From Klebsiella oxytoca (GTDB lineage Bacteria > Pseudomonadota > Gammaproteobacteria > Enterobacterales > Enterobacteriaceae): a stretch of 64,000 bases of DNA. The position numbers were made by a program, and so were the translations under genes. Of the stretch, positions 7,025 through 64,000 are shown piece after piece. A model generated the notes under the pieces. That model searched no databases and was not told the DNA's origin. It was given only the letters and a program-made list of their open reading frames with translations. The stretch is from NCBI RefSeq assembly GCF_009707385.1, contig NZ_CP046115.1:5208001-5272000 (forward strand), read 5' to 3'. Each line of letters begins with the position of its first letter. Position 1 is the first letter of the stretch.

Positions 7025-8203
7025 ATGTTTGAAAAGCGTCACCGTATTACGCTGTTATTTAACGCCAACAAGGCCTACGACCGTCAGGTCGTTGAGGGCG
7101 TTGGCGAATATCTACAAGCATCGCAATTGGAATGGGATATCTTCATCGAGGAAGATTTTCGGGCGCGAATTGAAAACATCAAGGACTGGTTAGGCGACGG
7201 CGTTATTGCCGATTACGACGATCCGGAAATTGAAAACCTGCTGATCGACGTTAATGTTCCGATTGTCGGCGTCGGTGGCTCTTTCCATCGCCCTGAATGC
7301 TATCCCCCAGTACACTATATCGCCACCGATAACGCCGCTCTGGTTGAGAGCGCTTTCCTGCATCTGAAGGAAAAAGGCATCAACCGCTTCGCTTTTTACG
7401 GCCTGCCAACTTCCAGCTGTAAGGGCTGGGCCGCCGAGCGCGAACATGCGTTTTGCCAGCTGGTCGCCAGAGAGAAGTATCGCGGCGTGGTGTATCAGGG
7501 CCTCGAGACGGCGCCAGAAAACTGGCAGCATGCGCAAAATCGCCTTGCCGACTGGCTGCAAACTCTGCCGCCGCAAACCGGCATTATCGCCGTCACCGAC
7601 GCCCGTGCGCGCCACGTCTTACAGGCCTGTGAGCTACTGCACATCCCGGTGCCGGAAAAACTGTGCGTTATCGGCATTGATAACGAAGAGCTCACCCGCT
7701 ACCTGTCGCGCGTGGCGCTGTCATCAGTTGCCCAGGGAACACGTCAGATGGGCTACCAGGCGGCAAAGCTGCTGCACCGCCTGCTGGAGAAAGAAGAGTT
7801 ACCGCTCCAGCGCCAGCTGATCCCACCGATGCGCGTGATAGAGCGCCGTTCCACCGACTACCGCTCGCTCACCGATCCATCGGTTATTCAGGCAATGCAC
7901 TATATTCGCAACCACGCCTGTAAAGGGATTAAAGTTGAACAGGTACTGGATGCCGTTGGCATTTCTCGCTCAAATCTGGAAAAGCGCTTTAAAGAGGAAG
8001 TGGGCGAGACCATACATACGGTAATTCATAGCGAGAAGCTGGAAAAAGCGCGCAGCCTGCTGGTCTCGACCACGCTATCGATTAACGAAATCTCCCAAAT
8101 GTGCGGTTATCCATCGCTGCAGTATTTCTATTCGGTGTTTAAGAAAGAGTACGACGTGACGCCGAAGGAGTACCGCGATCGGCACAGTGAAGTGATGATG
8201 TAA
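7025..8203 (+). CDS. xylR: Xylose operon activator XylR
   Basis: AraC-family activator that binds D-xylose and switches on xylAB and xylFGH. The 392 residues combine an N-terminal periplasmic-binding-like sensor (about 5-270, MFEKRHRITLLFNANKAYDR onward) with a C-terminal double helix-turn-helix (about 285-392, including VGISRSNLEKRFKEEVGETI and INEISQMCGYPSLQYFYSVF). I chose ATG 7025, preceded by AGGAA, over a longer in-frame start at 6980 because it gives the E. coli length. The 122 bp after xylH may hold its own weak promoter; read-through from xylH is also possible. Confidence 0.97.
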   Translation: MFEKRHRITLLFNANKAYDRQVVEGVGEYLQASQLEWDIFIEEDFRARIENIKDWLGDGVIADYDDPEIENLLIDVNVPIVGVGGSFHRPECYPPVHYIATDNAALVESAFLHLKEKGINRFAFYGLPTSSCKGWAAEREHAFCQLVAREKYRGVVYQGLETAPENWQHAQNRLADWLQTLPPQTGIIAVTDARARHVLQACELLHIPVPEKLCVIGIDNEELTRYLSRVALSSVAQGTRQMGYQAAKLLHRLLEKEELPLQRQLIPPMRVIERRSTDYRSLTDPSVIQAMHYIRNHACKGIKVEQVLDAVGISRSNLEKRFKEEVGETIHTVIHSEKLEKARSLLVSTTLSINEISQMCGYPSLQYFYSVFKKEYDVTPKEYRDRHSEVMM

Positions 8204-52610: not shown

Positions 52611-53687
52611 ATGACGCCTGAAAACCGCACTTCCGGCCGCGTGAACCCGGCGCGAATCCTGGTCATCAAGCTTCGTCATCATGGCGACATGTTGTTGATA
52701 ACCCCGCTTATTTATGCGCTAAAGCAGCAATATCCCGCCGCCATTGTGGATGTGCTGCTTTATGAAGAAACCCGGGATATGCTCGCAGCAAATACTGATA
52801 TCAGCCATATTTACGGCATTGACCGACGCTGGAAAAAACAGGGAACAGGTCATCAGCTTAAAATGGAGTGGCAGTTGATTCGTACGCTCCGCCAGCAGCG
52901 CTATGATATGGTGCTTAACCTTGCTGACCAGTGGCCCAGCGCGATCATCACTAAGTTAACCGGCGCGGCCACCCGTATCGGCTTTGATTTTCCGAAACGT
53001 CGTCACCCGGCGTGGCGTTTTTGCCATACCGCTCTCGCCTCAACGCAGCAGCATCATTATCTACACACCGTGCAGCAGAATCTGTCGATTCTGGCGCCGT
53101 TAGGGCTGGATATTAACGACGCGCCGGCGAAAATGGGCTACAGCGAACAGGACTGGCTCGCCAGCCGTGCGCTGCTGCCGGAAGGATTTCAGGACAACTA
53201 TATCGTCATTCAGCCGACCTCCCGCTGGTTCTTTAAATGCTGGCGCGAAGAGCGGATGAGCGCCCTGATTAACGCTCTCTCCGCAGCGGGCTATCCGGTC
53301 ATACTAACCTCCGGCCCTGACGCCAAAGAGAAGCAGATGATAGACACTATTATGGCGGGCTGCCCCAATGCTCGCCTGCACTCCCTCTCCGGGCAGCTCA
53401 CTCTGCGCCAGCTGGCATCCGTCATCGATCATGCCCGTCTGTTTATCGGCGTCGACTCGGTGCCAATGCACATGGCCGCTGCGCTGGGTACGCCGCTGGT
53501 TGCGCTTTTCGGCCCCTCGAAGCTCACCTTCTGGCGTCCCTGGCAGGCGCAAGGCGAGGTTATCTGGGCAGGGGATTTCGGCTCGATTCCCGACCCTGAT
53601 GATATCGATACCGGCACGGACGAACGTTATCTCGATTTAATTCCCACCGACGCGGTTATCGCGGCGGCGAAAAAGGTACTGGCATGA
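52611..53687 (+). CDS. waaQ: LPS heptosyltransferase III WaaQ
   Basis: Adds the side-branch heptose III to heptose II. The 358 residues are GT9: ILVIKLRHHGDMLLITPLIY with a catalytic Asp, VIQPTSRWFFKCWREERMSA and FIGVDSVPMHMAAALGTPLVALFGP. ATG 52611 gives a short Pro/Arg-rich leader (MTPENRTSGRVNPA). It is first of the rightward waaQ-wabG-wabH-...-coaD series, overlaps wabG by 4 bp, and is divergent from wabN across 78 bp that must hold both promoters. Confidence 0.95.
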   Translation: MTPENRTSGRVNPARILVIKLRHHGDMLLITPLIYALKQQYPAAIVDVLLYEETRDMLAANTDISHIYGIDRRWKKQGTGHQLKMEWQLIRTLRQQRYDMVLNLADQWPSAIITKLTGAATRIGFDFPKRRHPAWRFCHTALASTQQHHYLHTVQQNLSILAPLGLDINDAPAKMGYSEQDWLASRALLPEGFQDNYIVIQPTSRWFFKCWREERMSALINALSAAGYPVILTSGPDAKEKQMIDTIMAGCPNARLHSLSGQLTLRQLASVIDHARLFIGVDSVPMHMAAALGTPLVALFGPSKLTFWRPWQAQGEVIWAGDFGSIPDPDDIDTGTDERYLDLIPTDAVIAAAKKVLA

Positions 53688-54811
53688 GTAAATTCAGGCT
53701 GGCTCTGGTACGCCAGAAGTATCGCCCGGACGGCGGCGCGGAACGCTTTGTCTCCCGAGCGCTGGAGGCCCTCGACGACAGCGACCTTGAACTGAACGTC
53801 ATCACCCGCGAGTGGCAGGGCCCGGTGAAGCCCGAGTGGAACATCCATATCTGTAATCCGCGCAAGTGGGGGCGGATCAGCCGCGAGCGAGGATTTGCCA
53901 ATGCCGCCCGCCAGCTGTGGCAGCGCGAATCATTTGACCTGGTGCAAAGCCATGAGCGTATCCCCGGCTGCGACCTGTACCGCGCCGGAGACGGCGTGCA
54001 TCGTCGCTGGCTACAGCAGCGCTCGCGCATTTTGCCCGGCTGGAAAAGCCGCCTGCTGTTTGCCGACCGCTACCATCGCTATGTGATGCAGGCTGAACGC
54101 GAAATGTACCAGGACTCGCACCTGCGCGGCGTCATTTGTAACGCGGAGATGATTAAACGCGAGATCGTTGAAGACTTCGGCCTGCCGGCGGAAAAAATTC
54201 ACGTTATCTACAACGCTATCGATAACCAGCGCTTTCTGCCGCCAACGGAAGACGCTTTTGTTGCGCTACGCAGCAAATGGAATCTGCCGCTGCAGGCGAC
54301 CTGCCTGATCTACGTCGGCTCCGGCTTTGAGCGTAAGGGGCTGGATGCGGCAATCCGCGCCATCGCACCGACTAACCGCTATCTGCTGGTGGTAGGTAAA
54401 GATAAAGAGCAGGGTCGATACCAGCAGCTGGCGAAAACGCTGAACTGCGAGGATCGGGTGCGCTTTTTCGGCATGCAGTCGGAAACCCTGCCGTTTTATC
54501 AGATGGCCGACGGCCTGCTGCTGCCGACGCTGTACGATCCGTTCCCCAACGTCATTCTTGAGGCGATGGCCTGCGGCCTGCCGGTCATTACCACCACCGG
54601 CTGCGGCGGCGCGGAGTTTATCGTTCAGGGCAGTAACGGCTACGTTTGCGACACGCTGGATATCCCCGCCCTGCAGGAATCAGTCAACGCCCTGCCCGCC
54701 CGGGCGTTAGGCTCGGCGGAAGGCGAACGCGCCCGTGAGCGGATCATGACCTGCACCAGCGAACGCCTCTCGACGCAGCTGCTCTCCCTTTATCAGGATT
54801 TGGTGAAATAA
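53684..54811 (+). CDS. wabG: Core galacturonosyltransferase WabG
   Basis: In Klebsiella WabG transfers galacturonic acid to heptose II, replacing the E. coli WaaG glucosyl step. The 375 residues are GT4/GT-B: MSKFRLALVRQKYRPDGGAE with the N-terminal Gly loop, IYVGSGFERKGLDAAIRA, and the donor site YDPFPNVILEAMACGLPVI. The gene overlaps waaQ by 4 bp and is 2 bp before wabH, so it is within one operon. Choice of WabG over WaaG rests on the N-terminus and on the surrounding wabH and wabN genes. Confidence 0.93.
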   Translation: MSKFRLALVRQKYRPDGGAERFVSRALEALDDSDLELNVITREWQGPVKPEWNIHICNPRKWGRISRERGFANAARQLWQRESFDLVQSHERIPGCDLYRAGDGVHRRWLQQRSRILPGWKSRLLFADRYHRYVMQAEREMYQDSHLRGVICNAEMIKREIVEDFGLPAEKIHVIYNAIDNQRFLPPTEDAFVALRSKWNLPLQATCLIYVGSGFERKGLDAAIRAIAPTNRYLLVVGKDKEQGRYQQLAKTLNCEDRVRFFGMQSETLPFYQMADGLLLPTLYDPFPNVILEAMACGLPVITTTGCGGAEFIVQGSNGYVCDTLDIPALQESVNALPARALGSAEGERARERIMTCTSERLSTQLLSLYQDLVK

Positions 54812-54813
54812 CG

Positions 54814-55908
54814 ATGCGCATACTGTTTGTTATCGACGGCCTGCCCGGCGGCGGCGCGGAAAAAGTGGTGCTGACGCTGGCGGAACAGTTTCTTAAAGAA
54901 GGCGAGCAGGTGTCGCTTTTTTCCCTGCGCGACGTCTGCGATTACCCGCTACCGGAAGGGCTGGATTATCAGGTTATCGCCGACCGCTGTCGCAAACCGT
55001 GGCGCAAGCTGACCGAGCTATCCCGGCGCGCGCGCCAGCTTGATGCAGCTATCAATCAAGCGGAGCAGCAGGGCCGTTTCGATCTGGTGCTCTCGAATCT
55101 GCATAAAACTGACCGCATTGTCTCCCGCTGCCGCCTGCTGAACGGGCGTAACGTCTGGTTCTGCCTGCACGGCGTGTTCTCCACCTCTTATCTCGGCCAT
55201 CGCACCGGTTTTGACCGCTGGATGAAGCAGCAGAAGATCAAGCGCGTTTACCAGGGACGCAACGTCGTGACCGTCTCCGATGCGGTCGGCAGAGACCTGG
55301 TTGAACAGTTTGCGATTCGCCCGGCCCAGCTAAAAACCATCTATAACCCGTTTGATATCGCTGCCCTGCGCGCCGCGGCTGAAGAGCCCAGCGAGCGCCC
55401 CGACGGCGACTATATTATCCACGTGGGCCGCTTTCATCCCGGTAAACGCCATGACCGCCTGATTGAGGCTTACGCGCAAAGCGGCATCGAGGCGCCGCTG
55501 GTGCTGCTGGGACAGGGAAAACCGGAACAAGAGCAGCGCCTGCGCCAGCTGGCGCAGCAGCTACAGGTTGGCGATCGCGTGCTGTTTAAAGGCTTCCAGA
55601 AAAACCCGCTGCCGTGGATTAAAGGCGCGCGGATGCTGGTCCTGAGCTCCGATAGCGAAGGTTTTGGCAACGTGGTGGTGGAGGCGTTGCTGCTGGATAC
55701 GCCGGTGGCCAGCACCCGCTGCCCCGGCGGCGTGACCGAGATTCTGACCGGTGAGCTGTCGCGCGGCCTGGCGGACCTGAACAGCCCGGCGCTGGCTCAG
55801 ACGATGCAAAGCATTTACCATAGCCCGCCTGCTATTGATGCATCGGCGCTGGAAAAGTTCAGCGTCGCGTCGATTTGTCAGCAGTATCGTCAGTTGCGCA
55901 GCGCCTGA
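54814..55908 (+). CDS. wabH: Core N-acetylglucosaminyltransferase WabH
   Basis: In Klebsiella WabH adds GlcNAc to the galacturonic acid set by WabG; WabN then deacetylates it. The 364 residues are a GT4 with FVIDGLPGGGAEKVVLTLAE at the N-terminus, HVGRFHPGKRHDRLIEAYA, and the donor-site SSDSEGFGNVVVEALLLDTP. ATG 54814. The next gene follows after 30 bp. Identification is by family and gene order; the sugar assignment is inherited from Klebsiella work. Confidence 0.92.
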   Translation: MRILFVIDGLPGGGAEKVVLTLAEQFLKEGEQVSLFSLRDVCDYPLPEGLDYQVIADRCRKPWRKLTELSRRARQLDAAINQAEQQGRFDLVLSNLHKTDRIVSRCRLLNGRNVWFCLHGVFSTSYLGHRTGFDRWMKQQKIKRVYQGRNVVTVSDAVGRDLVEQFAIRPAQLKTIYNPFDIAALRAAAEEPSERPDGDYIIHVGRFHPGKRHDRLIEAYAQSGIEAPLVLLGQGKPEQEQRLRQLAQQLQVGDRVLFKGFQKNPLPWIKGARMLVLSSDSEGFGNVVVEALLLDTPVASTRCPGGVTEILTGELSRGLADLNSPALAQTMQSIYHSPPAIDASALEKFSVASICQQYRQLRSA

Positions 55909-55938
55909 CGCCGTTATTCAACCAGGATCGAATGATTT

Positions 55939-56928
55939 ATGAGTCAAACGCCTTTACTAAGCATCGTAGCCGCCGTCTATAACGGCGAAAAATTCCTTGC
56001 GCAGTTCTTCGAATGCCTTGAGCAACAGCAGCTGGAAAGCTATGAACTGATCCTGGTGAACGACGGGTCGACGGACGGCAGCCTGGCCATCATCGACCAG
56101 TGGAAAGACCGCCTGCAAAACGTGCTCGTGCTGGAGCAGGAAAACCAGGGCGTGTCGGTGGCGCGCAATACCGGTCTTGCCGTGGCTACGGGTAAATACC
56201 TGACTTTCCCGGACATCGACGACAAGCTTTATCCCGGTATGTACCGCACTCTTCTGGAAATGGCGGAAAAAGGCAACCTTGACGTCGCTACCTGCAACGG
56301 CCGCTACGTCTACGAGACGAAAAAAGATATCCATCCTATTTTTCCGCTCGATCGGCTGCAGTCGACCGGCGTATTGCCCGGCCACGTCTGGTTAAAAAAG
56401 GCGCTGGATTCTCGTAAGTTCCTGCATGTCACCTGGCTGAATATTTACCGCCGCGAGTTTATCGCCGGTCACCAGTTCCATTTCGAGCCTGGCCTGCGTC
56501 ATCAGGATATTCCGTGGACCACGGAAGTGCTGCTGGCGGCAGAACGCGTGCAGTACACCAGCGAGCAGTTCTACGATTACTACATCCATTCGGAATCGGT
56601 GTCGCATAAGCCGGACAACGACGATACGCTGATGCGCTCGGCGCGCCACTATATGAAGATTCTCGAGATGCTGGAGGCCATCAACCAGCGCTATCCGGAT
56701 AAGGTTCGCGATATTTCCGCCTGCCGCTGGCAAATAGCCAAAGAGGGGCTCGGAATTATTCATACTTTCGATAGCATGAAAGATGAGTCAAAAAAGCATA
56801 TTATTATTAAAGAGTTCTTTGACCGCGGTATCTGGAGTCTGATCTGGAAAAACGCCCGTACATTCCGCCTACGCTGGCGTCTTGGACGCCGCTATCTGCG
56901 CATCAAGCGCTATCGCGACGCGGCTTAA
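55939..56928 (+). CDS. WaaH-like GT2 glycosyltransferase (Klebsiella waa orf10 position)
   Basis: The 329 residues resemble E. coli WaaH (YibD), which adds glucuronic acid to heptose III. The GT-A core is LLSIVAAVYNGEKFLAQFF, VNDGSTDGSL, ENQGVSVARNTGLAVATGKY and the D-x-D-like FPDIDDKLYPGMY. Shared later segments are LDRLQSTGVLPGHVWL and GLRHQDIPWTTEVLL. It lies between wabH and waaA, where Klebsiella has orf10. A role in uronic acid decoration is inferred, not shown. No PhoB box is apparent in the 30 bp upstream; in E. coli waaH is phosphate-regulated. Confidence 0.82.
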   Translation: MSQTPLLSIVAAVYNGEKFLAQFFECLEQQQLESYELILVNDGSTDGSLAIIDQWKDRLQNVLVLEQENQGVSVARNTGLAVATGKYLTFPDIDDKLYPGMYRTLLEMAEKGNLDVATCNGRYVYETKKDIHPIFPLDRLQSTGVLPGHVWLKKALDSRKFLHVTWLNIYRREFIAGHQFHFEPGLRHQDIPWTTEVLLAAERVQYTSEQFYDYYIHSESVSHKPDNDDTLMRSARHYMKILEMLEAINQRYPDKVRDISACRWQIAKEGLGIIHTFDSMKDESKKHIIIKEFFDRGIWSLIWKNARTFRLRWRLGRRYLRIKRYRDAA

Positions 56929-57020
56929 TACTGAATCCCGTAGTTTCCGCCAAAGAGATAGCTTTACGCGGGTTAAATGCTTAGAATTTGCCCGCAAAAA
57001 CATAAATACGGATAAATCGC

Positions 57021-58294
57021 TTGGAATTGCTTTATACCGCTCTACTTTACCTTATTCAGCCGCTGGTGTGGCTGCGGCTGCTTTTACGCAGTCGTAAGGC
57101 CCCTGCCTATCGCAAACGCTGGGCGGAACGTTATGGCTTCTGTCAGAACAAGGTAGAACCAGATGGTATTCTGCTGCATTCCGTTTCCGTAGGCGAAACC
57201 CTGGCGGCTATCCCGCTGGTACGCGCGTTACGCCACCGTTACCCTTATCTGCCGATCACCGTCACTACCATGACGCCAACCGGCTCTGAACGCGCAATGT
57301 CCGCTTTCGGCAAAGACGTGCATCACGTCTACCTGCCTTACGATCTCCCCGGCGCGATGAATCGCTTCTTCAATACCGTCCAGCCAAAGCTGGTTATCGT
57401 GATGGAAACCGAACTGTGGCCGAATATGGTCGCTACGCTGCATAAGCGTAAAATCCCGCTGGTTATCGCCAACGCCCGCCTGTCCGAACGCTCGGCGAAA
57501 GGTTATGCCAAACTGGGTAAATTTATGAGTCGGCTGCTGAGCCGCATTACGCTTATCGCCGCGCAGAATGAAGAAGACGCCAACCGCTTTATCGCTCTCG
57601 GTCTGAAACGTAATCAGCTGGCGGTGACCGGTAGCCTGAAGTTTGATATCTCAGTGACGCCTGAACTGGCCGCTCGCGCCATCACCCTGCGCCGCCAGTG
57701 GGCGCCGCACCGCCAGGTATGGATTGCCACCAGCACCCACGACGGCGAGGAACAAATTATTCTTCAGGCGCATAAAAAGCTGCTTGAGCGTTTCCCCAAT
57801 CTGCTGCTGATCCTTGTCCCTCGCCATCCGGAACGCTTCGGCGACGCCCGCGAGATGGTGCAGAAAGCGGGAATGAGCTACACCCTGCGCAGCACCGGCG
57901 AAATCCCTTCGAGCAGCACCCAGGTGGTAATTGGCGATACCATGGGTGAGCTGATGCTGCTGTACGGCATTGCCGATCTCGCGTTTGTCGGCGGTAGCCT
58001 GGTGGAGCGCGGCGGCCATAATCCGCTCGAACCCGCAGCTCACGCTATTCCGGTGCTGATGGGACCACACACTTTCAACTTCAAAGATATCTGCGCCAAG
58101 CTGCAGCAGGACGATGGGCTCATTACCGTGACCGACGCCGCCTCGCTGGTGACGCAGGTATCCAACCTGCTGACCGATGAAGATTACCGTCTGTGGTACG
58201 GTCGTCACGCGGTGGAAGTTCTGCACCAAAACCAGGGCGCGCTCTCCCGCCTGCTACAGTTACTGCAACCTTATCTGCCGCAGCGGAGCCACTA

Positions 58295-58295
<1 letters not shown>
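57021..58295 (+). CDS. waaA: Kdo transferase WaaA
   Basis: Transfers two Kdo residues to lipid IVA at the inner membrane; essential. The 424 residues (E. coli 425) start at TTG 57021 ([20 protein letters not shown]), a membrane-anchor helix. Catalytic Glu59 lies in [18 protein letters not shown]. Further motifs are [34 protein letters not shown] and [11 protein letters not shown]. No ATG matches the family start, so TTG is chosen despite a weak ribosome site. The 92-bp spacer before it may hold its own promoter. It shares one base of the stop with the waaE ATG. Confidence 0.97.
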
Positions 58296-59661: not shown

Positions 59662-60471
59662 CTACTTCTGGCACTGGCGGCAATAAAACGTCGCCCGCTG
59701 GGCGTGTTTACTGCCAATAACCGGCGTCCCGCAAATGCGGCACGGTTCGCCCTTACGACCATAAACCTGTAGCTCCTGGGCAAAATAGCCCGGTTTACCG
59801 TCACTTTGCAGGAAATCTTTCAGCGTCGTCCCTCCCTGTTCAATTGAACGCAGCAGTACCAGCTTGATGACCTTCACCAGCTGTTCGCACTCCTCTCGCG
59901 ATAAAGAAGACGCCAGCCGATCGGGATGGATACCCGCCGAGAACAGCGATTCGCTGGCGTAGATATTGCCAACGCCAACCACCAGCTTGTTATCCATCAG
60001 CCAGGGCTTAATCGCGGTTTTCTTCTTCGCGCACCGCTGCTGGAGATAATCGGCGTTGAACTCATCGCTCAGCGGCTCCGGCCCCAGATGCGCCAGCACC
60101 GGATGGCCTTCCAGCTCTTTAGTCCACAGCCAGGCGCCAAAACGACGCGGATCGGTATAACGCAGAACCTTACCGTTACTCATCACGAGGTCTACGTGAT
60201 CGTGCTTCTCTGCGGGCAGCTCTTCACTCAGGATCCGCAGGCTTCCCGACATCCCAAGGTGGACGATAATCCAGCCGTCCGGCAGCTCCAGCAGCAGATA
60301 TTTCGCGCGGCGACGCACGCTAAGAACCGGTACGTCGCTGAGGCGGTAGATCTCTTCGGAAACCGGCCAGCGCAAACGTCCGTTGCGCACAACAGCATGC
60401 AGGATGGTGGCACCAACCAGATGCGGCTCAATACCGCGACGGCTGGTTTCAACTTCTGGTAATTCAGGCAT
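59662..60471 (-). CDS. mutM: Formamidopyrimidine-DNA glycosylase MutM (Fpg)
   Basis: Removes 8-oxoguanine and formamidopyrimidines from DNA and nicks the AP site. The 269 residues equal E. coli MutM. Catalytic N-terminal Pro in [16 protein letters not shown], Lys in [11 protein letters not shown], the H2TH segment [20 protein letters not shown], and the zinc finger [10 protein letters not shown] / FYCRQCQK. In E. coli it is preceded by radC-rpmB-rpmG; here rpmG does not occur upstream within the window. Confidence 0.98.
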
Positions 60472-60534: not shown

Positions 60535-62865
60535 TTAGTGCTGAAAATTCACTCTGATAGTTATTCTCCTGCCGTCAGGCTGCGGCTTAAATTTCCAGCG
60601 CCAAAGCATATCGACCGCCCGCGCATCATACTCTTCCACTTCGCTGCTTTTGCTTACCAGCACCAGCGTCGGAGCGCCATTTTTATCAATATCAACGCTC
60701 AGCTCAGCCTGTTTATCTCCCTGCGCCTGCGGTCTCTTCCACTCAACGTTGAAGAAAGGCGCGTTTAACACCTCATTCCGATCGATATCAACCGTCATAC
60801 TCACTGACGAGTCATTGGGAACAATAGTTTCATAACGCTCCAGTATTTTGCTCACCGGCAGGATATCCCCGGCCTTTGCGGTATCTTCACCTTTCGCTCT
60901 TTCCCCGAGGATATCGACATAATCCGCATATACTTTTGCCGAAAGAATCGCATTACGTTCACCCATGCCAACCCGCATCAGCAGCTTAGTTTTGATATTG
61001 GCTATTTTCTGCTCGGTATCCGCGGCGAGGGGCTGTAGCAGCAGGGAATAGATCATCGCGCCGATATACAGTTCAGGATCGCGCTCGGCCCACAGGCTAC
61101 CCCAGGCCATCCATACCTGCGGGTCTTCCGGAGCCAGCGCCAGCAGCTGCGCCCACGTTGCCCGATTCTCTTCAAAAGAAGCAAAGCTTTTTCGCAGCGC
61201 CAGATCCTTCAATAACGGCGCATAGTACGGATGCGTATCGACCAGGGCTTCCATCGCCTCTGTCATTTCGGTGAAGGCTTCCATTCTGCCTTTGGTACTT
61301 TTATCCCGCTTTTTAAGGTAGATAAGCTGTAAATTTCGCGCCTCTTCCGCGCTGAGCTTCTTCTGCGGAAACAGCGCTTTCATCCGGGTGAATTGCGCGG
61401 TCATCTCTTGCGCGGCAGTTTCCATCCCGGCGTTATTATGCCGGGCCGCCAGTCGGGCGATACGCATCGCCCGTGCCTCCATCTCCCGATAGTGTTCCTC
61501 TGGCGCCAGACGATCGCTGATAAACGTCACCGGCACCAACAAGCGCTTTCCCTGCGGGTTAGAGTGAAAACGCCACTGCTGCGCATAATGCAGCGCCGCT
61601 TTGTCAAACTCCGGAACGCCGCTACTGCATTCGACCACCACGTTTAATAGATCGCCGCTAACGTGCGTATCGACCGAGAGCACCGTTGTCGCCGACTTGA
61701 TAAATTTATTTATCGTCGGATAGAACATTGGAGACACCGACTCTTTCGCAATCCCATATCTTTCGGCCTCAATGCTTACGTGCCCTGGAAAGCGCTCGTT
61801 AATCGGGCTGGCGCTACGCACGGAGCCTTGTTTAAACACGATCGATCGCGCCAGGGGTAAGACCTTTTCGGCGTCCCCATTTTCATTCTCTGCCAGCGGT
61901 GAATCGCAGGAGCGGGCCTGCATTCTGGCCCGCAGAATTTGCAGGATTTGCCGATCTTCAGGCGGCATTTGAGCAATATATGCCTCTAACCGCTGCTGTA
62001 GGGCTGGCTGGCGCGGGCTATCCTTCAGGCCCTCTGCCATCAATAATCCGCTGGTGATGCTTTGCGTGAGCGGCTGAAACTGCGAATTTCGCACCCGCTC
62101 ATCATCACGAGACTGGATCAGCGCTAATGCCCAGCCCAGCCAGGCGTCAGGGTTTTCCGGCGCAATGGCGATTGCCTGGCGAAATGCTCTTTCCGCCAGC
62201 GCTTTATTGGCATCCGTGGTCAGCGTCAGGACGGCCGCAGCCAGCGTCAGATCGCCACGGTCCGGCATCCAGGACAAATAATCCTCCATCTTCGGAAGGG
62301 CCTTTGCCTCTTGCTCACGATAGCCCAATGCCTGCTGCCAGAGCGCATCAGCGGCAGCGGCATCGTCTTTATTCCAGCCAAGCGGCAGCTCCGCCAGAGG
62401 CCTTTTCTGCGCGAGAAATTGCTCGATAATGTTGTGTTGATTAAACGGCTCCCCGCGCAGGGTTATCTGAATAAAACGGGCATGGCGGTCATAGAGAAAA
62501 TCCTGCCAGGCGGGTAACTCCAGCTGATTCATACTCTGCCAGCGCCGCTGGTTCTGCTCGCCGATGGGGACATTGAATAACGTGATACCGATGACGAAAA
62601 CAATCTGCGCCACGGCGGCGGCCAGATAGCCTTTATTACGCCGGGTGACTGCGACCCACATCAGCGCGGAAAAGTAGAGAGCGCCCCCCAGCCACAGGCC
62701 GTAGAGCAATAAACGCTGGGGAGCATTCAGCGCCGCCGGTAAAAGCGAAAGCTTATCCACCAACATAAAGGGGACAGACCAGAGAAAGAGCACCATATTC
62801 GGCGCGACAAAAAGCACAATCAAAGACAAGATGACCAGCAGGTGCTTTAACTTCGGCGTAATCAT
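60535..62865 (-). CDS. Membrane protein with two TonB-C-like domains and helical repeats
   Basis: Not a family I can name. The 776 residues have three N-terminal membrane helices (about 9-29, 52-73, 80-99). TPR-like stretches follow (AERAFRQAIAIAPENPDAWL near 225 and ENRATWAQLLALAPEDPQVW near 566). Two segments resemble the C-terminal domain of TonB: about 392-448 (NVVVECSSGVPEFDKAALHY) and about 720-775 (PTLVLVSKSSEVEEYDARAV, then WRWKFKPQPDGRRITIRVNF). Both keep the SS...D.AA....W.F.P pattern. The ATG directly abuts the kinase stop, so the two are one operon. The bulk is probably periplasmic. Envelope sensing or energy coupling is a guess. Confidence 0.8.
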   Translation of the reverse strand: MITPKLKHLLVILSLIVLFVAPNMVLFLWSVPFMLVDKLSLLPAALNAPQRLLLYGLWLGGALYFSALMWVAVTRRNKGYLAAAVAQIVFVIGITLFNVPIGEQNQRRWQSMNQLELPAWQDFLYDRHARFIQITLRGEPFNQHNIIEQFLAQKRPLAELPLGWNKDDAAAADALWQQALGYREQEAKALPKMEDYLSWMPDRGDLTLAAAVLTLTTDANKALAERAFRQAIAIAPENPDAWLGWALALIQSRDDERVRNSQFQPLTQSITSGLLMAEGLKDSPRQPALQQRLEAYIAQMPPEDRQILQILRARMQARSCDSPLAENENGDAEKVLPLARSIVFKQGSVRSASPINERFPGHVSIEAERYGIAKESVSPMFYPTINKFIKSATTVLSVDTHVSGDLLNVVVECSSGVPEFDKAALHYAQQWRFHSNPQGKRLLVPVTFISDRLAPEEHYREMEARAMRIARLAARHNNAGMETAAQEMTAQFTRMKALFPQKKLSAEEARNLQLIYLKKRDKSTKGRMEAFTEMTEAMEALVDTHPYYAPLLKDLALRKSFASFEENRATWAQLLALAPEDPQVWMAWGSLWAERDPELYIGAMIYSLLLQPLAADTEQKIANIKTKLLMRVGMGERNAILSAKVYADYVDILGERAKGEDTAKAGDILPVSKILERYETIVPNDSSVSMTVDIDRNEVLNAPFFNVEWKRPQAQGDKQAELSVDIDKNGAPTLVLVSKSSEVEEYDARAVDMLWRWKFKPQPDGRRITIRVNFQH

Positions 62866-64000
62866 TTATGGCTTACTCCGAAGAATCGCCAGCAGCCCCA
62901 TCACGGCTATCCAGACAAAAATCAGGATTAACGCCGCGTTATCGTACCAGGCATGCCAGGGACCACTCAGTTGGGTAAAATTACGCGCTAATATGGCCAT
63001 CACCAGCGTACTAATCACAGCCAGTGCGCCATGCCATACAAATGCAGGAACTTTGCTGCGCATATTGCGCCACAGCAGCGTTAACGGCCCTGGCCCGGTT
63101 GGCTGACGAGGTATCGCAGCGGCTGGCGCAACGCGAGGCTGGCGCTTGATGGGCGCAGGACGCTGGCGAACAGTTTGCGTTTGCTTATGCTGCTTCGCCT
63201 GCTTTACGCCTTCTACAACCTTTTTTTCACGTGCGCAGACCAGGCACGGCATCCCGGCGAAATGCTGATGCTTCTGACTACAGAGTATAATTTTTTGCGT
63301 GCTGCGTAGCGCATAAGGACGCAGTACCTGCGCCCATTCATCAGCGGAAGGGCGTCGGGCTGGTGAACCGCTAAACGCGCGGTCAAACAGTTCACGCAGC
63401 TCAGCCGGTAGCAGATGGTGGGTACTGGCCGGTACCGGGGCGATATTTTTTGCGGCATTGATACCGTAGGCGTAGCAGCCTGCGGCAATACGCCCTGATA
63501 AATCATCAGGCACCTTCGCCGTTTGTGAACGGCCGCTATAGGGATGGATACCGTGGTTAAGCAGCTGGAAAATAATGACTGCCAGCGAAAAGCGATCCTG
63601 AGCCTCTTCCTGTTCTCCGGGTACCTGCCCGATGCGCTGAAACTCCGGCGCCAGGTAATCCGGCGTAAACTGCCCGGCCGGGAAACGTTCACCTACACCC
63701 TGGATGCTAAAGCCATCGCAGTCCAGCAGCGCGATATACAGGCTGTCGCGATAAAAGCGCAGGTTGACCGGCTTCATGTCGATAACCCGGTGCTGACGCG
63801 CGTGCAGCGCCGAAACCAGGGTGGCGAGATTACAGGCGAGGCTCACTTTTGCGCCGATACCTTCCGGAAGATTCTGCGCCTTCGCCTGCCGCGCCTGTAA
63901 AATATACTCCAGCTCAATGGTGCGCTGAGTATCCAGGACAGGCATAACAAAACCAACGACGCGCCTGCGCTCATCGAAAAGCAAATAATCAGGCCATGCC
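62866..64000 (-). CDS. YegI-like Ser/Thr protein kinase, 5' end off the window
   Basis: The frame is open to base 64000, so the N-terminus (glycine loop and VAIK lysine) is unseen; 377 residues are visible. Kinase motifs are intact: catalytic loop HRVIDMKPVNL, the DFG-equivalent DCDGF, and FTPDYLAPEF for APE. These and the AWPDYLLFDERRRVVGFVMP segment fit bacterial YegI-type kinases. After the kinase come a Cys/His cluster (CSQKHQHFAGMPCLVC), a basic Pro/Gln linker and two C-terminal membrane helices (about 316-338 and 350-370). Its TAA touches the ATG of the TonB-C-like gene. Substrate unknown. Confidence 0.88.
   Translation of the reverse strand, partial: AWPDYLLFDERRRVVGFVMPVLDTQRTIELEYILQARQAKAQNLPEGIGAKVSLACNLATLVSALHARQHRVIDMKPVNLRFYRDSLYIALLDCDGFSIQGVGERFPAGQFTPDYLAPEFQRIGQVPGEQEEAQDRFSLAVIIFQLLNHGIHPYSGRSQTAKVPDDLSGRIAAGCYAYGINAAKNIAPVPASTHHLLPAELRELFDRAFSGSPARRPSADEWAQVLRPYALRSTQKIILCSQKHQHFAGMPCLVCAREKKVVEGVKQAKQHKQTQTVRQRPAPIKRQPRVAPAAAIPRQPTGPGPLTLLWRNMRSKVPAFVWHGALAVISTLVMAILARNFTQLSGPWHAWYDNAALILIFVWIAVMGLLAILRSKP

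Follow-up and report, generated by a model that had tools for sequence, protein, structure and literature searches.

Genomic locus and operon structure

The stretch analysed here (henceforth the window; 64,000 nucleotides) covers positions 5208001-5272000 of NZ_CP046115.1, the 5.39 Mb single-contig genome of Klebsiella oxytoca. A four-gene operon is cut by the window edge, and 16 kb across this edge (L002) were additionally examined. In order of transcription and on one strand, the locus comprises rpmG, a gene for a VWA protein (225 aa), a PP2C phosphatase (241 aa), a Ser/Thr kinase (457 aa), a 776-aa protein for which the name TON is used here, and mutM. The first three operon genes are assigned to the TerY-P triads, which are already known; TON as a constant fourth gene is new. 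The genes are as follows.

L002:6959-7636 (window-equivalent 64959-65636), minus strand: VWA gene, off the window, upstream of the kinase
L002:6229-6954 (window-equivalent 64229-64954), minus strand: PP2C phosphatase gene, off the window, upstream of the kinase
62866..64000, minus strand: kinase gene of YegI/TerY-P type, truncated at the window edge; complete at L002:4866-6239, i.e., up to window-equivalent 64239 (457 aa)
60535..62865, minus strand: TON gene, 776 codons; three likely transmembrane (TM) helices, then twice a TPR solenoid followed by a TonB_C domain
59662..60471, minus strand: mutM, downstream flank, marking the insertion site together with rpmG on the other side

The VWA and PP2C genes are 4 bp apart, the PP2C and kinase genes overlap by 11 bp, and the gap between kinase and TON is 0 bp; because of this spacing, the four genes form a tight operon. 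A first-pass annotation, made from the letters of the window, had described a kinase directly abutted by a 776-residue protein at the junction of mutM and rpmG, and had guessed that a PP2C or a VWA gene might lie upstream, off the window. All of this was found in the genome sequence: the kinase open reading frame (ORF) ends at 62866, adjoining the TON frame without a gap, both genes lie between mutM and rpmG, and the two guessed genes are present upstream on the same strand. The operon starts just past the rpmG terminator, and its base composition resembles that of the window. A promoter scan returned one weak match, equal to the number in shuffled sequences.

The TerY-P-type core

The listed kinase frame has 468 codons and begins with GTG. 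Because six relatives from the genus carry a TAG inside the matched stretch and the ORFs of three Klebsiella relatives start at residue 12 of this frame, the ATG at that residue is the likely start, giving the kinase of 457 aa. No Pfam kinase match was obtained for this protein at E-values up to 1, and matches to phosphorylase kinase were weak (E 0.002). Foldseek recognised a protein kinase fold in the AlphaFold2 model (mean predicted local distance difference test (pLDDT) 81.6), and PknB was one of the top-ranking hits (best PknB row E 1.2e-11, TM-score by target 0.61). The predicted kinase identity rests on the fold of the model, the weak phosphorylase kinase matches, and the conservation of residues. 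K43, D154, K156, N159, D173, and D175 are invariant in seven aligned clade members, in agreement with the intact active site reported in the first pass. The following kinase features were located.

63763..63792, minus strand: catalytic loop, H150-x3-D154-x-K156-P-x-N159
63712..63723, minus strand: metal-binding motif, D173-C-D175-G176
63235..63282, minus strand: zinc-type motif directly after the kinase domain, C320-x3-H324 ... C332-x2-C335
62878..63045, minus strand: C-terminal membrane hairpin, residues 399-454, from hydropathy and model helices 399-424 and 430-454 (pLDDT 51-75)

C320, H324, C332, and C335 occur without exception in the 11 kinases compared, which represent three phyla, and zinc binding is predicted from the motif. 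In the model, this region consists of two strands (317-320 and 324-327) followed by a helix (333-355); past residue 327 there are only helices and a disordered stretch, and no OB fold. A helix-hairpin-helix was not matched in the window kinase at E-values up to 1.

Pfam assigned the VWA protein to PF00092 (E 1.3e-7) and the phosphatase to PF13672 (E 2.2e-43). Residues of the metal ion-dependent adhesion site (MIDAS; DxSxS, T, (S/T)DG) are present in 10 of 10 aligned VWA proteins, as are the PP2C metal motifs (DGAGS, GDG, (S/T)DG, DDK) in 10 of 10 aligned phosphatases. PMC11090510 and PMC4978471 describe the TerY-P triad, which consists of a TerY-like VWA protein, a PP2C-type phosphatase, and a Ser/Thr kinase that carries a zinc ribbon at its C-terminus. 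Because the core agrees with the definition in PMC11090510, VWA, PP2C, and the kinase with its Cys/His zinc-type motif were classified as a TerY-P-type triad, related to yegL-pphC-yegI of E. coli.

Architecture and predicted topology of TON

Two TonB_C stretches were detected in TON with Pfam and NCBIfam (PF03544 E 1.9e-14; TIGR01352 E 1.4e-18), and TPR matches remained below the cut-off. The AlphaFold2 model (mean pLDDT 84.5) contains two helical solenoids and two TonB_C domains, and the two halves of the protein match one another by profile. TON is hence likely a duplicated unit of a TPR solenoid and a TonB_C domain behind three membrane helices, in line with the TPR-like and TonB-C-like parts read from the sequence at first. 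The predicted parts of TON are listed below.

62566..62865, minus strand: residues 1-100, with likely TM1 (about 9-29), TM2 (48-75), and TM3 (78-98), from AlphaFold2 helices
61915..62559, minus strand: first TPR-type helical solenoid, residues 103-317
61516..61785, minus strand: first TonB_C domain, residues 361-450
60868..61503, minus strand: second helical solenoid, residues 455-666, from AlphaFold2 and the half-to-half profile match
60541..60801, minus strand: second TonB_C domain, residues 689-775

A solved TonB structure (9ddz) was matched by the TON profile at residues 376-448 (E 1.8e-7). When the whole TON model was submitted to a fold search, generic TPR proteins made up the list and the TonB_C parts were hardly probed; the periplasmic TPR proteins LbcA and LpoP were among the matches, but as widespread TPR folds only.

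TonB_C domains usually lie on the periplasmic side of the membrane. The N-terminus of TON and the loop between TM2 and TM3 are rich in Lys and Arg, which points to an outward C-terminus, and most of TON is predicted to be periplasmic. With three helices, the predicted cytoplasmic parts comprise about 8 residues and a loop of a few residues, without conserved Ser or Thr; in their longest reading frames, two relatives, both from one genome (G002), have longer N-terminal tails. Since the predicted cytoplasmic share of TON is this small, the first-pass suggestion that the kinase phosphorylates its N-terminal cytoplasmic loops is less likely.

The two TonB_C domains might suggest a TonB-like energy transducer for uptake, placed under control of the kinase. 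Such transducers have a single N-terminal TM helix and a Pro-rich spacer, and work with ExbB/ExbD. TON has more than one predicted TM helix and no Pro-rich spacer (no scanned 40-residue stretch with at least 6 Pro), and ExbB/ExbD were not seen among the L002 ORFs, which were read by eye with no profile search made. We regard this function as very improbable.

Distribution and co-occurrence of kinase and TON

Among 246 genomes sampled in the family Enterobacteriaceae, TON was found in 6, and the kinase profile matched 9, six of them closely (E below 1e-220) and three distantly (E 1e-29 to 1e-35). The 6 genomes with the close kinase are exactly the 6 TON genomes; these searches score a few best candidates per genome, and some kinases or TONs may be missed. 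The 3 distant kinases are encoded in frames of 655-734 aa in genomes without a TON match. Within the genus (20 genomes, one per species), 7 genomes carry kinase and TON, adjacent every time and between rpmG and mutM, while in the other 13 these two genes lie side by side, about 100-220 bp apart (empty site). A survey of co-occurrence had been proposed with the first-pass annotation; in it, homologues were not mostly found apart (6 of 6 in the family sample, 7 of 7 in the genus). With 7 species carrying the pair and 13 empty sites, it is also not a fixed core feature of the genus. When both ends of the insertion were set against six of these 13 sites, no signs of mobile elements were seen at the junction.

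The four-gene order is retained in four further genera, at four other sites (16 neighbours scanned).

Downstream of Rhs- and NADAR-type genes and beside a luxR-type gene (G078)
Flanked by treR and a carbamoyltransferase gene
With a dmsD-type gene on one side and luxI/luxR-type genes on the other
Bordered by recR and a cstA-type gene

Because the order is the same at five unrelated sites, the set has been kept, or moved, as a unit. Neutral hitchhiking, i.e., adjacent genes without a functional tie, is strongly disfavoured by this order at five sites in five genera and by the exact co-occurrence, and we give it next to no credence.

In two of the four other genera, luxI/luxR-type or luxR-type genes lie directly beside the operon (L017:11390-12787; L015:11735-12475), which could be chance. 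In G078, the Rhs gene and the NADAR-type gene, which matches TIGR02464 (E 6e-49) and, weakly, an anti-phage NADAR family, are located upstream of the operon at L015:40-5736. In G002 (L016:8671-13891), two tandem TON paralogues, 29 and 24% identical to the window TON, follow one kinase.

Close relatives of TON are encoded in Klebsiella grimontii and K. spallanzanii (86% identity) and in K. michiganensis (88%). Protein-database searches with TON, its alignment, and a G078 relative yielded 24, 24, and 3 matches, all of them close relatives; in each search only the 7996-7998 candidates sharing most words were scored, and absence beyond the family is not proven by this. A class-wide search with the TON profile, in which at most two candidates were scored per genome, matched 88 of 369 genomes, and the matches beyond its own genome were short stretches, nearly all of them TonB_C parts. 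TON was not found on plasmids in a search of plasmid records, and a distant-mode search of E. coli genomes returned no DNA match.

Conservation and selection

Between genera (18 pairs), TON is the least conserved of the four proteins at 23-29% identity, compared with 46-58% for the kinase, 45-56% for PP2C, and 69-78% for VWA; conservation decreases from the inner to the outer components. Within TON, the TM2-TM3 hairpin and the TonB_C domains reach 32-34% (33.7% for the TM2-TM3 region) versus 23-25% in the solenoids. The ratio of nonsynonymous to synonymous substitution rates (dN/dS) in five comparisons within Klebsiella was 0.02-0.05 for VWA, 0.11-0.14 for PP2C, 0.07-0.13 for the kinase, and 0.17-0.22 for TON, with MutM at about 0.01. 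All four genes are under purifying selection within Klebsiella, and TON is not a chance ORF because of its values against the five relatives. The identities of kinase and TON are correlated (Spearman 0.89; other gene pairs 0.66-0.84), which is weak evidence, as the 21 pairs come from 7 operons and are not independent. By these sequence comparisons, a constant switch with a fast-changing outer part would suit a sensor or recognition role and equally a defence role; it proves neither.

Partner exchange and fusion in related kinases

An order-wide kinase search matched 6 of 345 genomes and led to a genus of another family (g166). In two of its species (L070, L071), the triad is followed by a separate protein of 551 or 558 aa with a single N-terminal TM helix, for which a Pfam search gave no significant match. 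In a third species (G297, L072:8674-11469), kinase and a homologous region form one fused protein of 931 aa, with a TM helix between them; the region matches the separate partners with blastp (E 4e-8 and 1e-7) and phmmer (E 3e-9 and 3e-8).

A class-wide kinase search matched 15 of 369 genomes, and 55 plasmid records held distant kinases, 9 of which were examined (2 without gene annotation in the stretch). Across the 24 loci scanned for kinase context, VWA, PP2C, and kinase were all recognised in 11; at L119, the kinase is on the other strand. A TM helix is predicted C-terminal to the kinase domain in ten of the 11 triads, and the eleventh is cut by the contig end. The remaining 13 loci had a kinase with TM in three (L118, L124, L125), a kinase without TM in seven, and no recognised kinase in three. 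Tails vary: they carry an annotated WD-40 in Trichormus, TM plus 200 aa in an Azospirillum triad, and several TMs in Granulicella. Because of this variation among related triad kinases, the C-terminal side of the kinase is the place where parts are exchanged. A separate case is a 682-aa TM kinase of this clade at L118:4225-6273 (G910), the tail of which holds a formylglycine-generating-enzyme-type domain (PF03781 E 6e-45); VWA or PP2C was not recognised beside it on this short contig.

Proposed mechanism and alternatives

On balance, and with little better than even confidence, TON is read here as the receptor subunit of a split receptor kinase, i.e., of a TerY-P-type switch wired to the periplasm, and not mainly as a substrate. 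Starting from the observed triad, operon structure, and co-occurrence, and from the predicted membrane helices at the C-terminus of the kinase and the N-terminus of a mostly periplasmic TON, we infer sensing, contact between the two proteins, and a direction of the signal as follows. Kinase and TON would pair through their membrane hairpins, and the TPR and TonB_C units of TON would bind a ligand in the envelope; candidates are misfolded proteins, peptidoglycan, and short peptide stretches of outer-membrane receptors. Occupancy of TON would alter kinase activity across the membrane; the kinase would then phosphorylate itself and cytoplasmic targets, and PP2C would reset the system. VWA may read a divalent metal via its MIDAS site and scaffold or gate kinase and PP2C. 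Points in favour are the strict linkage of kinase and TON, the four-gene order at five sites, the drop in conservation towards TON, the fused kinase of G297, the extended Azospirillum kinase, and the Lys- and Arg-rich segments of TON.

In a narrower version, the two TonB_C domains would dock on the TonB boxes of outer-membrane receptors, which would let the triad kinase monitor TonB-dependent transporters. We consider it improbable. TonB-dependent transporters are the doors for many phages, colicins, and siderophores, and if this version were true, a Ser/Thr kinase tripwire would read the outer membrane from the periplasm; to our knowledge, it would be the first phosphorylation switch to sense through TonB_C domains.

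TON could also be the output. As an effector, it would then remodel the envelope or act as a scaffold, and the triad would control its assembly or stability, possibly via phosphorylation of its short cytoplasmic parts. Its gene is the last of the operon and directly abuts that of the kinase, TPR and TonB_C domains are protein-binding, and LbcA and LpoP are among the fold matches, though only as common TPR folds. The scarcity of cytoplasmic residues and the lack of a conserved Ser or Thr in them speak against it (the G002 copies may have longer tails), as does the fact that elsewhere the equivalent place is filled by a domain fused to the kinase itself. This makes an output role improbable.

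The first-pass annotation had offered a transmembrane signalling or a defence unit. Signalling is supported as one option, and defence remains its rival: TON would notice the passage of a phage or colicin through the envelope, and the membrane-anchored TerY-P kinase would trigger a shutdown. According to PMC7699616 and PMC10889362, TerY-P systems defend against T7-like phages/Autographiviridae. The scattered occurrence in the genus (7 of the 20 species, with 13 empty sites) and the several unrelated insertion sites would suit this, as would the outward-facing gene changing fastest, the Rhs gene and the NADAR-type gene with its weak anti-phage family match upstream of the G078 operon, and a phage-type integrase gene about 7 kb upstream of the operon in the window genome (L002:14597-15820, window-equivalent 72597-73820; PF00589 E 1.3e-14, PF13356, PF22022). 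PADLOC matched the kinase to PD-T4-6 (E 2.9e-8) and mad6 (E 1.2e-4), and PP2C to PDC-M21C (E 5.7e-5). However, the kinase matches may reflect generic kinase similarity, and VWA and TON had no PADLOC match. The immediate neighbours are ordinary chromosomal genes that are also present at empty sites, and four gene types (radC, coaBC-, slmA-, and rph-type) separate the operon from the integrase. The Klebsiella copies share one site and are under purifying selection. The kinase tail consists of a zinc motif and a TM hairpin, without the OB fold in which the kinase of the stand-alone anti-phage TerY-P system ends according to PMC11090510. Taken together, a defence role is unlikely but has to be taken seriously.

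Several points weigh against TON as a receptor subunit. Its topology hinges on TM2, without which the C-terminus would be cytoplasmic; the 19-residue hydropathy of TM1, TM2, and TM3 is 2.74, 1.52, and 2.24, i.e., TM2 is under the threshold of 1.6, which several relatives reach. The model is of low quality over its first 40 residues (pLDDT 51-61 in the TM1 region). The fusion partner comes from a genus of another bacterial family (g166) and, as far as seen, is no relative of TON, and the data point to no particular ligand. PMC13232886, in its passage on YegI, describes autophosphorylation of this kinase and its dephosphorylation by PphC and mentions no such partner; YegI thus does not need one for activity. 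The few candidates scored per genome also bear on the co-occurrence, as stated above.

Other features near the operon

A yicC-like ORF (identified by eye) adjoins the integrase gene, and an integrated element may lie beyond. In the window at 53684-58295, two group-1 glycosyltransferases and a Kdo transferase are encoded beside a coaD-type gene and mutM, an arrangement that we take to resemble lipopolysaccharide core loci.

Comparison with known systems

TerY-P triads are spread over several phyla, and some of them act against phages; nothing was found that settles what they sense. A sub-clade with a constant, modular, and probably extra-membrane partner, together with a fusion in a related lineage, makes the input side testable. 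If the receptor reading is true, TonB_C domains would do more than transduce energy, and this in a genus that is common in the clinic.

The triad was reportedly described by Anantharaman et al. in 2012, and an anti-phage TerY-P system is said to have been described by Gao et al. in 2020. Like the triad, the Klebsiella core has a TerY-like VWA, a PP2C, and a Ser/Thr kinase with a C-terminal zinc-ribbon-like motif; unlike it, the kinase ends in a membrane hairpin and TON is a constant fourth gene. Genes for tellurite resistance, restriction, or other DNA processing are frequent though non-defining neighbours of TerY-P triads. The Klebsiella operon is flanked by mutM and radC, which also occur at the empty sites, and no restriction or tellurite genes were seen beside it (no restriction or ter genes were noticed among the L002 ORFs, read by eye and in part also with Pfam). 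With the Gao-type anti-phage system it shares VWA, PP2C, and kinase, whereas the kinase there ends in an OB fold (PMC11090510), and in Klebsiella in a zinc motif and a TM hairpin, with TON as partner. The first-pass claim that no described system has this pairing holds in part: the three-gene core is the triad described in PMC11090510, and no description of TON was found; the open-access literature searched contained no paper linking a TerY-P triad with a TonB-type protein.

The gene order VWA-PP2C-membrane kinase is shared with YegL-PphC(YegK)-YegI of E. coli, in which YegI and PphC are a membrane-bound kinase and its phosphatase (PMC13232886). One genome of the genus (G248) carries both the TON operon and a separate YegL-PphC-YegI-like set (L076). 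The L076 kinase is 32% identical to the window kinase over residues 7-300, which, with the same gene order, supports the YegI-like label given at first. It differs in its length of 655 aa, an HHH_5 stretch (E 1.5e-4, below the cut-off), a catalytic loop without Lys (GDVNQNS), and the absence of TON.

TON shares the TonB_C fold and a profile match to a solved TonB with the TonB energy transducer, and departs from it in having two TonB_C copies, TPR solenoids, two or three TMs, and no Pro-rich spacer. With PknB-type receptor kinases, the Klebsiella system has in common the predicted kinase fold and a presumed sensor outside the membrane. No PASTA match was obtained in kinase or TON by Pfam search, and, unlike in these receptor kinases, kinase and presumed sensor are two chains in Klebsiella, which in the G297 relative are one.

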